Of a DNA stretch of 64,000 nt, positions 34,173-39,951 are shown piece by piece. The position numbers and the translations under genes were made by a program. Origin of the DNA: Synechococcales cyanobacterium GL140_1_metabinner_5_sub (lineage in GTDB: Bacteria > Cyanobacteriota > Cyanobacteriia > Cyanobacteriales > Chamaesiphonaceae); the NCBI GenBank assembly GCA_025359065.1, contig JANYHM010000013.1, positions 62,001 to 126,000 of the forward strand, read 5' to 3'. Position 1 is the stretch's first letter; every line of letters begins with the position of its first letter. The notes under the pieces are model-generated. The model saw nothing but the letters and a program-made list of their open reading frames with translations. It had not been told where the DNA came from and searched no databases.

Positions 34173-34246
34173 TTTGACCTGGTAAGTTGTCGGGCAGAGA
34201 TATAAATCTCTGCCTATCCCTGTGAAACTTTTAAATTTAATTAATT

Positions 34247-34659: not shown

Positions 34660-34694
34660 AACCGGTGGTTAGATTGATAACTACCGATTTTTTG
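34660..34694 (+). terminator. Rho-independent terminator of atpD-atpC
   Basis: CGGTGGTTA pairs with TAACTACCG (one G-U wobble) across a six-base loop and is followed by ATTTTTTG. It lies about 20 bases after atpC and before the inserted restriction-modification genes. Confidence 0.88.
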
Positions 34695-34778: not shown

Positions 34779-36332
34779 TTAGAACTTAGACTTAAATGCC
34801 GTTTCCGAAGTGTCTCTATTAAAAGAATTGCCATCACGATCATCACTTCCCAGCACCCCCGTTTCCACAATTGCCCTCCCCAACATCTCAACCACCGGCA
34901 CTGAAACACTATTCCCCAACAACTTCATCCACCGTACCCGACTCTCTGGCAACATAAAATCCTCTGGAAACCCCTGGATCAAACAAGCCTCCTCCTTAGT
35001 AATTTTCCGATAATTCTTCTTCTTGTAAACCCGCTCAATAAACAGCCGCTTATAATCCTCCACCTTCTCAGCCTTGATTTCCTCCAAAGTAATATAATCA
35101 TTAGAATCACTAGCCACCAACGTAGGGAAAATATCCGAAGTAGGCAAAAATATTCGATTAATACCAAACAACCCCGTGCTTATTTTAGTATTTTTAAAAT
35201 CATACCTGACCTCCTCACAAACGATAACATCCTTATCCAACAACGCCGACACAGTTTTCAAAACCGATATTTTCTTAAGTTTTAGTTCACCACTACTTTT
35301 CAAATCATCAATCACTAACTTTTTATTGTTGCCATGCTGCAACACCGCGTACTCCTCATCAGAAAGATCCTCCGCATCAAAAGACCTGATCGAAAAAGCA
35401 TATTTCTCGGCCTTGAAAATATCCAGCTTCACCAGCCCATCTAAATCCTGTTGCTTGATCGTTGGATCTAACCCCTGAAAATGCTGAAGAGACAAAGGGT
35501 TTCCATCTAAATTACCATAAGCACTTTTCCGACGATTCTTTAACAACAAATAGCAAATCTCTTTCTGCCTTTCCGTGGTGTCGATAATATCCCAAGAATG
35601 TATAGTCGAATGACCGTTCCGCAGATCATTAAACAAAAAGTAATCATTAATACCATTATTACTGGATAAACTAGTGTACTTCTTCTGGGCAAAATTTCCA
35701 AATAAACTCTGTTGAATGACCTGCTCTTTTTTCACAAACTTTGAATTGAAATTTGATAAAATACTCCCCAGCCTAATCTTTTCACTAAAAGGATTGGTAA
35801 TATTGAACTTCAAAGAGAACTCTTGATCTCTAAAACCTACAATATAAATCCTCACTCTGTTCTGAGGAACCCCATAATCAAAAGAATTGATCACATAATA
35901 ACTAGCAAAATATCCAGCATCCTTGATTCGCTTCAAAATATAAAAAAGAGCATCTCTGTTTCTAGGATCAGCCAAGCCTTTCACATTTTCAAAGATAAAA
36001 GCCTTTGGTCTAGATTGATTCAGTAAATAAATAGTATCATTCCATAATTGCCCTCGATCATCATCAAAACCCAGATTTTTACCAGCGATCGACCAACTCT
36101 GACAAGGGACTCCTGCTGTTAAGATATCATGCTGTGGTATTTTTTTTATCTTAGTAATATCTCCCAAATTACCATCAGTACTTTCTTGGAAATTTGTGCA
36201 ATAAGTGTTTATTGCATCATTATTAATCTCACTGAAATTCTGACACTCTCCTCCAATGTTGCTGAGTGCAATTCTAAACCCTCCAATTCCAGAGAATAAA
36301 TCTATAAATGTAAACTTATTTGAGCTATTCAT
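34779..36332 (-). CDS. DNA (cytosine-5-)-methyltransferase
   Basis: 517 residues. Modification half of a type II system. Conserved motifs in order: I FIDLFSGIGGFRIAL, IV GVPCQSWSIAG with catalytic Cys in PCQ, VI FENVKGL, VIII QNRVRIYIVGF, a long variable target-recognition region (about residues 200-430), IX near EEACLIQGFPEDF and X LGNSVSVPVVEMLG. It begins 3 bases after the stop of the endonuclease gene, so both are one transcript. Paired with a TdeIII-like endonuclease, a GGNCC target is a family-based guess. It lies between the two convergent atp transcription units. Confidence 0.95.
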   Translation of the reverse strand: MNSSNKFTFIDLFSGIGGFRIALSNIGGECQNFSEINNDAINTYCTNFQESTDGNLGDITKIKKIPQHDILTAGVPCQSWSIAGKNLGFDDDRGQLWNDTIYLLNQSRPKAFIFENVKGLADPRNRDALFYILKRIKDAGYFASYYVINSFDYGVPQNRVRIYIVGFRDQEFSLKFNITNPFSEKIRLGSILSNFNSKFVKKEQVIQQSLFGNFAQKKYTSLSSNNGINDYFLFNDLRNGHSTIHSWDIIDTTERQKEICYLLLKNRRKSAYGNLDGNPLSLQHFQGLDPTIKQQDLDGLVKLDIFKAEKYAFSIRSFDAEDLSDEEYAVLQHGNNKKLVIDDLKSSGELKLKKISVLKTVSALLDKDVIVCEEVRYDFKNTKISTGLFGINRIFLPTSDIFPTLVASDSNDYITLEEIKAEKVEDYKRLFIERVYKKKNYRKITKEEACLIQGFPEDFMLPESRVRWMKLLGNSVSVPVVEMLGRAIVETGVLGSDDRDGNSFNRDTSETAFKSKF

Positions 36333-36335
36333 CTT

Positions 36336-37172
36336 CTATTTGAGTAAGTCCTGGTCAAAGTTTGTCGGTGGTTCTATTTCTAGAAATTCTCTATAAATTC
36401 TTTCCCGATATTCCTTTCCTATTAAATTCACTTCTGTTATGAAATTGTTGTAAGTTCCTTCTCCACCTATTAACTCCCAAAACTCATCCCCAATCAGAAC
36501 AGATTTGTCATGCTGCATATCAAACCATCGCCTTGGAAAAGTCCAAGCGTAGTCTTCTTTTTTACCATAAGGGTTATAAGGCAAAGCAAAAAAAGCATAA
36601 TTAACTTTCTTTGGCTTCATTGCTAACAACTTAAAAATTTTCTCTTTGCTTACCTTTGTTTGGTCACTATTTGGCATAGGAGCTTTCAATTCAAAAGCAT
36701 ATTTCGTTTTCGTTTTCTCATTGTGAATGAAAATATCACAAACAACACTAACTGGAATGGGTTCACCACCACCTTTATTAATATATTTAATTTCTTTTTC
36801 CCAATCAGGCTTGATTTTTTCATCGCCTTTTTTACTATGTTCTAACTGATTCAATACTTCCTGAATTCTTCTTAGGCTTTCGCTGCCTACCAAGCCATCG
36901 ATCGTGTGACCCATTAAACAACTTCCATGAGCCTCCATCGCAACAACTTGAGCCAGTCTCTCCCAAACATTACCAAAAGGAGTGACAAATCTTCTTTCAA
37001 AATGCGAACCTTTAAATATTTCATCAGGAACTAATGCTGAATAGAGCGGTTTACTAGCATGATGTTTTTCCTTGATGAAAGGATCTTTGATCAACACATT
37101 ATCCATTACTCGATTCATCATACTAGAAACCACTTCTTTGATAGCCAATGCAACTCGTTCTTGCTTACTCAT
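36336..37172 (-). CDS. Type II restriction endonuclease, TdeIII-like
   Basis: 278 residues. The order and blocks resemble the TdeIII family of type II enzymes: an N-terminal helical region, GNVWERLAQVVA, and a PD-(D/E)xK-type core in which VVCDIFIHN supplies the Asp and YAFELKAPMP supplies ExK. DNA cleavage at a short palindrome is expected; GGNCC is the target of the type member and is only inferred here. It is the first gene of the pair, with the methyltransferase 3 bases behind, an order that requires the host to be methylated before entry or the methyltransferase to be made quickly. Confidence 0.8.
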   Translation of the reverse strand: MSKQERVALAIKEVVSSMMNRVMDNVLIKDPFIKEKHHASKPLYSALVPDEIFKGSHFERRFVTPFGNVWERLAQVVAMEAHGSCLMGHTIDGLVGSESLRRIQEVLNQLEHSKKGDEKIKPDWEKEIKYINKGGGEPIPVSVVCDIFIHNEKTKTKYAFELKAPMPNSDQTKVSKEKIFKLLAMKPKKVNYAFFALPYNPYGKKEDYAWTFPRRWFDMQHDKSVLIGDEFWELIGGEGTYNNFITEVNLIGKEYRERIYREFLEIEPPTNFDQDLLK

Positions 37173-37270: not shown

Positions 37271-37298
37271 AAAAAGCCCGTAGCACCATGCCACGGGC
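37271..37298 (-). terminator. Rho-independent terminator of the large atp operon
   Basis: On the minus strand GCCCGT pairs with ACGGGC and is followed by TTTTTG. It is about 30 bases after the atpG (gamma) stop codon. Confidence 0.85.
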
Positions 37299-37326: not shown

Positions 37327-38277
37327 TTAACCTTGTAAAGCCTCTGCTCCACCGACCACTTCCAGAATTTCTTGGGTGATCGCTGCTTGCCGTGCCTTGT
37401 TGTAAGTCAAAGTCAAACTACTAATCAGAGACTTGGCGTTATCGCTGGCATTATTCATTGCCGTCATCCGCGCTGCCAACTCACTCGCCGCCGCCTCTTG
37501 TAGCGCCCGTAGTAACTGGTTATTTAAATATAACGGCAACAGCGAAGCCAAAATTTGGGTAGGTTCTTGTTCAAAAATAGTGTCCTTGGGTAGAGGAGCC
37601 ACTGTCGAAGTCATCTTTTCCCGAGAAACTTCAAAACCGCCGCCCCGAGTAGTTAACCGGAAAACTTCATCATCTTTTACTTCCAAGCCTTGAGGGCTAA
37701 GAGGCAACAGAGTTTGAATGACTGGACGAGAAGCAATCAAGGAAACGAACTTGGTGTAAACCAGTTCCACTCGATCGACCTCTTCACCCAAAAACAAAGC
37801 GGTAATTTTATCGCCAATCTTATTGGCTTCCATGGCAGTTGGAATTTGCTCCAGGCCAGTAAAAGTAGCGGCGATCGGCTGTTCCCGGCGTTGGAAATAC
37901 TGGGAAGCTTTCCGTCCGACAATTACATAGGTATACTTCAAGCCCTGTGCAGCAAGCTCTTTAGCCCGTAGCTCAGCTTTTTTGATAATGCCACTGTTGT
38001 AACCACCGCATAAGCCACGATCGCCGGTAACTACCAAAATTGCTACAGTCTTTACTTCGCGACTGTCCATTAAAGGTAAATTTACATCTTCAAAGCTCAA
38101 GCGATCTTGCAAGCCATACAGCACTTGAGCCAATCGATCGGCAAAAGGACGAGTAGCAATTACTTGCTGTTGTGCTCTGCGTACCTTGGCTGCGGCTACT
38201 AGGCGCATTGCTTCAGTAATTTTTTTGGTGTTTTTGACCGACTGAATCTGGTCACGAATTGCTTTAAGGTTAGCCAT
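37327..38277 (-). CDS. atpG: ATP synthase subunit gamma
   Basis: 316 residues, longer than the bacterial 286-290 because it carries the insertion found in cyanobacteria and chloroplasts (around residues 195-235). The insertion has no cysteine pair, so thiol regulation of the chloroplast kind is absent. Seen: N-terminal helix [45 protein letters not shown], and the C-terminal [17 protein letters not shown] ... [13 protein letters not shown]. It is the rotating shaft. A hairpin with a T tract lies between atpA and this gene. Confidence 0.97.
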
Positions 38278-38321
38278 TTTATTTAAGTCTCCAGAAAATA
38301 TATTTATGAGTGCGCTATATC

Positions 38322-38360
38322 TAAAAAAGGCAAGAGTCTTTAATTGAAAAACTCTTGCCT
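38322..38360 (-). terminator. Terminator-like hairpin inside the atp operon, between atpA and atpG
   Basis: On the minus strand AGGCAAGAGT pairs perfectly with ACTCTTGCCT (plus positions 38328-38337 and 38351-38360) and is followed immediately by TTTTTTAG. It lies 16 bases after the atpA stop. It has the form of an intrinsic terminator, probably partial, that would lower atpG transcription relative to atpA. Confidence 0.8.
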
Positions 38361-38376
38361 CCTTAAATTCCTATCA

Positions 38377-39951
<1,575 letters not shown>

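Follow-up and report, generated by a model that had tools for sequence, protein, structure and literature searches.

It is a general question how a single bacterial operon can yield its subunits in unequal amounts, and cyanobacteria meet it without Rho. In ATP synthase, subunit c is present in about 12-15 copies, alpha and beta in three, and the others in one. The window (the whole 64,000-nucleotide stretch of cyanobacterial DNA analyzed here) raises the question between its alpha and gamma genes, where a hairpin is followed by a T run. An earlier note on this DNA proposed that partial termination at this hairpin matches transcript supply to the 3:1 stoichiometry. We lean modestly towards the view that this is a real hairpin of the intrinsic-terminator type inside the atp1 operon, and that partial read-through into gamma would leave more RNA for the atpA end than for gamma.

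The atp1 operon lies on the minus strand in the order a, c, b', b, delta, alpha, gamma (Pfam), and a beta-epsilon pair on the plus strand faces it (ORFs, Pfam). The alpha and gamma identities given in the earlier note agree with Pfam, but its name for the gamma gene, atpG, does not follow cyanobacterial usage, which we take to be atpC. The features of the operon and its surroundings are as follows.

38377 to 39897, minus strand: atpA, ATP synthase alpha subunit, 506 aa (ORF; Pfam PF00006, PF00306, PF02874)
37327 to 38277, minus strand: gamma subunit gene, 316 aa, with its start 45 nt past the U-tract (ORF; Pfam PF00231)
38289 to 38292, minus strand: probable Shine-Dalgarno sequence of gamma, GGAG, clear of the hairpin (read and interpreted from the sequence)
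37276 to 37298, minus strand: operon-end terminator past gamma, a hairpin then TTTTTGTT (scan, terminator rule, fold)
34192 to 34215, plus strand: hairpin of the beta-epsilon gap, a companion to the alpha-gamma one, 10 bp with a 4-nt loop and lacking a U-tract (z -5.05)
34663 to 34686, plus strand: terminator-like hairpin past epsilon, then ATTTTTTG (scan, fold)

Alpha and gamma share a strand and a conserved order, with a gap of 99 nt. We looked for a gamma promoter that would bypass the hairpin as a possible refutation. Promoter-like sites in 12 kb numbered 15, compared with 19.5 expected, and none beyond chance level was found for gamma. The single candidate in the gap, a 9/12 match at 38325-38297, was rejected: the congener has a changed second hexamer, and total matches were below chance. 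The beta-epsilon hairpin (34192-34215, plus strand) has a perfect 10-bp stem including one G-U pair and sits at the second 3-to-1 step of the enzyme. Downstream of gamma, genes for a C-5 cytosine DNA methylase and for a TdeIII-type restriction endonuclease (34779-37172, minus strand; Pfam) separate the atp1 operon from the convergent beta-epsilon pair.

The element between alpha and gamma has the following parts.

38323 to 38360, minus strand: hairpin and U-tract (inverted repeat, fold, terminator rule)
38351 to 38360, minus strand: 5' arm of the hairpin, AGGCAAGAGT (read from the sequence)
38328 to 38337, minus strand: 3' arm of the hairpin, ACTCTTGCCT, its final base being the first T of the T run (read from the sequence)
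38323 to 38328, minus strand: T run (U-tract) of six T (read from the sequence; the same in the congener G001)

The earlier note had described a perfect 10-base stem followed by TTTTTT on the minus strand, 16 bases past atpA, and the sequence bears this out (atpA stop at 38379-38377, minus strand; 16 nt to the hairpin), except that the stem and the T run share a base. The first T already belongs to the tenth pair (A-T), leaving five T after a 10-bp stem or six after a 9-bp stem. Five of the ten pairs are G-C, and four extra pairs (one U-G and three U-A) shrink the loop to 5 nt, for a stem of 14 bp counting one wobble. The 38-nt element has a minimum free energy (MFE) of -18.2 kcal/mol (z -6.4), with none of 200 shuffles as good, and the wider 76 nt around the hairpin give a z of -4.9. 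The label terminator-like also holds by sequence: of the two sequence marks of an intrinsic (Rho-independent) terminator, the element has a stem-loop of the stability just given and, next to it, a U-tract (TTTTTT at 38328-38323, its first T within the stem). The stem occurs once each in G000 (the window's genome) and G001, which excludes a dispersed repeat as its source. We note that AAGGAGG at 38358-38364 (minus strand), presumably a complete match to the usual anti-Shine-Dalgarno, lies 12 nt past the atpA stop and partly inside the stem, and that no ATG, GTG or TTG stands at usable spacing from it.

To place the element among other gene ends of the same genome, a stricter hairpin-plus-U rule was applied to 273 gene ends in 463,561 bases of G000 (the window, the part of L282 without overlap, and another 20 stretches), with gaps below 25 nt excluded (including 55 co-directional pairs). 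The rule matched after 45 of the 273, the gamma and epsilon ends included. Close co-directional gaps (25-120 nt) had six matches in 85, the alpha-gamma element being one of them, compared with 0 of 255 shuffles of those 85 gaps; background gene calls here are plain ORFs, and some of these close gaps may be operon ends. Matches were present in 12 of 63 co-directional gaps of 121-250 nt, 8 of 37 longer than 250 nt, and 19 of 88 convergent gaps, and shuffled rates across gap classes ranged from 0 to 1.1%. The alpha-gamma hairpin is not a chance occurrence. An earlier crude hairpin scan, with a loop limit of 8, had missed it, and the totals of that scan were at chance (13 found, 12.8 expected). 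Among the 45 terminators, the alpha-gamma hairpin ranked 13th by stem energy and 25th by a terminator score used for ranking only, on which the terminator past gamma was 1st and the one past epsilon 43rd. By its sequence the element is a predicted intrinsic terminator of middle strength, so partial termination would be the best guess. Middling strength is compatible with partial rather than full termination, though no proof of it.

Conservation within the genus extends to the whole element. Between the window's genome and G001, the only congener met, none of the 38 element columns differs, compared with 8 of the 61 remaining gap columns (Fisher p 0.022), in a comparison of two genomes whose gamma proteins are 97% identical. 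The loop, too, is unchanged, so the constraint shown is on the element and not on pairing as such. Across cyanobacteria, alpha followed by gamma could be paired in 136 of the 138 loci fetched (L049 and L089 have no atpA in their stretch) and in the window, giving 137 rows that hold the window twice and several genomes from both collections and that represent 123 distinct gaps. A stem of -8 kcal/mol or better with five T in the next eight nucleotides was present in 19 of the 137 rows. At least four T directly after such a stem were found only in the window's genus (four rows, two genomes) and in L048, Calothrix sp. PCC 7103, the sole distant exception. A directly adjoining U-tract was absent from all seven other genomes of the window's family that gave the gap. 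Judged from these sequences, the U-tract is a feature of the window's genus, L048 excepted, and a canonical terminator conserved throughout cyanobacteria is excluded.

We then considered predicted structure in a panel of 60 genomes representing 39 families, in which z of MFE was computed over the first 150 nt of gaps of at least 25 nt (100 shuffles); genomes absent from a count had a shorter gap or genes for which pairing failed. In 52 of 55 panel genomes the alpha-gamma gap contained a hairpin of -8 kcal/mol or better, and at least five T followed within the next 8 nt in 3 of these 52, a count that leaves out the window because the automatic U-tract count misses a T run absorbed by the fold. 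Conservation in relatives, proposed in the earlier note as a check, is found for the hairpin, which is identical in the congener and predicted in most cyanobacteria examined; the U-tract is kept in the congener but, L048 excepted, not outside the genus. Hairpins started a median of 9.5 nt after the upstream stop at alpha-gamma, 9 nt at beta-epsilon and 24 nt at a-c, and a median of 34-35 nt remained between the alpha-gamma or beta-epsilon hairpins and the next start. In many alpha-gamma gaps (Nostocales and others), an array of ~7-nt repeats is followed by its inverse and folds into a long stem. Across many loci from L016 to L130 the unit of these arrays varies by species and the stem forms each time; structure may possibly be retained during sequence turnover. 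In family f41 (six small genomes, presumed to be picocyanobacteria), alpha-gamma gaps were 31 nt or less or uncounted, with no hairpin there, so the device is dispensable. Beside this absence stands a report that the sRNA Yfr10 of Prochlorococcus MED4 targets atpA and atpC and, in the part of that report available, not other operon genes (PMC6778093).

Across the atp genes, the gaps with strong structure were c-b' (median z -3.26; 43/52 at -2 or below), alpha-gamma (-3.64; 42/55) and beta-epsilon (-3.87; 41/54). Less structure was found at a-c (-0.98; 19/58), b'-b (-1.40; 11/44) and delta-alpha (-0.29; 12/58), and co-directional background gaps (n=98) had a median z of -0.36, with 16/98 at -2 or below; these too were defined by plain ORFs, so that some close ones may be operon ends. 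Between b and delta there is an overlap or hardly any gap (median -4). When each of the three structured gaps was compared with each of the other three in paired tests, p values ranged from 1.5e-6 to 3.9e-8, and alpha-gamma was more structured than delta-alpha in 45/54 genomes and than a-c in 44/54. Family means showed the same division, with alpha-gamma at -3.19 (27/37), beta-epsilon at -3.68 (30/36) and c-b' at -3.47 (28/32), compared with a-c at -0.92 (9/38), delta-alpha at -0.39 (9/38) and b'-b at -1.40 (6/30). In atp operons, strong structure lies at the falls in copy number and not at the rises, which fits the stoichiometry idea.

Gap structure is not reserved for such falls, however, since two pairs of 1:1 genes could not be distinguished from alpha-gamma. 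Among four 1:1 controls (30 loci per pair, from as many as 41 of the 60 panel genomes), psaA-psaB (median z -3.97; 20/26 structured; Mann-Whitney p 0.96 against alpha-gamma) and rpoB-rpoC1 (-3.25; 19/25; p 0.73) were equally structured, petB-petD was intermediate in value (-1.69; 14/30), and cpcB-cpcA was mostly open (-0.83; 5/29); the gap after cpcA, a presumed fall, had a median z of -4.5 (29/30 structured). The idea that hairpins occur only at falls in stoichiometry was cut back on these grounds. The data are described equally well if gaps that precede strongly translated genes (a-c, delta-alpha, cpcB-cpcA) remain open while the rest tend towards structure. In the window's genome, where the contrast is sharper, the 1:1 gaps had z values of -0.98 (psaA-psaB), 0.32 (rpoB-rpoC1), -0.95 (petB-petD) and -1.5 (cpcB-cpcA), and the fall gaps about -4 (alpha-gamma), -3.4 (beta-epsilon) and -3.75 (after cpcA); c-b' at only -1.4 and b'-b at about -2 fit the stoichiometry idea less well. 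We note that the psaA-psaB (L404-L432) and rpoB-rpoC1 (L312-L341) gaps, which lack it in the window's own genome, have strong predicted structure in many other cyanobacteria. Of the proposed 3:1 matching, what stands is that the three structured atp gaps are the three copy-number falls; the equally structured 1:1 gaps, the U-tract restricted to one genus and L048, and the hairpin-free presumed picocyanobacteria weigh against it. Selection of the element to match the 3:1 ratio is only suggested. It is rather unlikely, in our view, that a stem-loop is kept at each atp copy-number fall as a structural mark of subunit ratio, with its sequence rebuilt repeatedly out of differing repeats, lineages tuning between stabilizer and terminator by loss or gain of the U-tract, as in the window's genus.

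These patterns bear on what the hairpin might do other than terminate. One possibility, which we hold tentatively and as short of likely, is that it serves mainly as a 3' stabilizer or processing site: the transcript would be cut downstream, exonucleases would halt at the stem, and the alpha segment would outlive gamma, termination being minor. The panel leans this way, given how seldom its alpha-gamma hairpins are followed by five or more T, and so does the placement of the stems, which lie near the alpha and beta stops and some 34-35 nt before the next gene, a position that favors an effect on the RNA behind the stem. The window's own beta-epsilon hairpin, having no U-tract, points in the same direction; were a single logic to govern both 3-to-1 falls, it could not consist of termination only. 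Selective RNA processing and stabilization (SRPS) with stem-loops in Clostridium operons, with predictions including ATP synthases, is described in the available text of PMC8219983. The U-tract in the window's genome, retained in the congener, speaks against this alternative, as does the account, from the accessible part of a study of S. elongatus, that ends without U-tracts are mostly unstructured (PMC13289151). In the same account, 3' ends with U-tracts act as intrinsic terminators and longer U runs allow less read-through, but hairpin and U-tract together occur at only 22% of transcription units, which counts against the termination reading (PMC13289151). With a U-tract, as in the window, intrinsic termination is the leading reading; without one, as in most relatives, a stabilizer or processing site is likelier.

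We consider it unlikely that the stem-loops are a general, repeat-derived trait of cyanobacterial gaps with little effect on expression at alpha-gamma. The 1:1 gaps that match alpha-gamma (psaA-psaB, n=26; rpoB-rpoC1, n=25) would suit such a trait, as would the inverted arrays of Nostocales and others and the f41 genomes that manage without the hairpin, and a Nostoc study holds, in the portion available, that such intergenic repeats may be functionless (PMC2408588). In the window's genome, however, all four 1:1 gaps are unstructured and the alpha-gamma hairpin is single-copy, and the co-directional background of the panel shows little structure. A restriction of gamma translation, not transcription, seems very improbable. 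Structure limiting translation has been reported for epsilon in E. coli, and at both alpha-gamma and beta-epsilon the structure precedes a low-copy subunit, but past the U-tract there are 30 nt before the GGAG of gamma (38292-38289) and more before the start codon, which makes masking of the ribosome site unlikely.

Returning to partial termination, we infer from the sequence that termination occurs at the element, that it is partial, and that it lowers gamma. The stem would form behind RNA polymerase leaving atpA, during a pause on the U-tract, where part of the complexes would release and the rest would continue into gamma. Terminated transcripts would end in a stable hairpin, which may shield atpA and the preceding genes from 3' exonucleases, and the net outcome would be more atpA-end RNA than gamma RNA. 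Partial termination is plausible because gamma comes next in a conserved operon shared with alpha, the promoter search gave nothing above chance, and the element ranks mid-field among the terminators of this genome.

If the hairpin attenuates gamma, a core energy complex would be under simple RNA-level control, and a ready set for comparing structure with measured RNA ratios in many species would be available in the alpha-gamma, beta-epsilon and c-b' gaps. The phylum-wide pattern of gap structure is a more interesting lead than the single element. A search of open-licence papers, which is weak evidence of absence, found no study of the cyanobacterial alpha-gamma hairpin.

Three known systems offer comparisons, each drawn from the available part of the reports cited. 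In ABC importer operons of Ruminiclostridium cellulolyticum, internal intrinsic terminators set ratios, as tested by experiment (PMC9045158). There, as here, a stem-loop separates a gene in higher demand from genes in lower demand. Partial termination sets the ratio there and would do so at alpha-gamma, a case known from sequence, in another operon and another phylum; compared with ordinary terminators, the internal ones of R. cellulolyticum also show fewer U and longer GC-rich stems, unlike the plain six-T run at alpha-gamma (PMC9045158). An internal hairpin in the Bacillus ars operon is likewise said, in the text available, to lower full-operon expression (PMC4562236). SRPS stem-loops are found where a high-ratio gene within an operon has its 3' end, with predictions that include ATP synthase operons, and the alpha-gamma hairpin, 16 nt past the atpA stop, has this position, but it bears a U-tract, and SRPS requires a cut and segmental stability (PMC8219983, PMC10311766). 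The intrinsic terminators of Synechococcus elongatus PCC 7942 share the hairpin and U-rich run in a phylum without Rho, but they mark the ends of transcription units, whereas the alpha-gamma element lies inside an operon (PMC13289151). Together, these comparisons place the alpha-gamma element as a putative further case of the internal ratio-setting terminators already known elsewhere.
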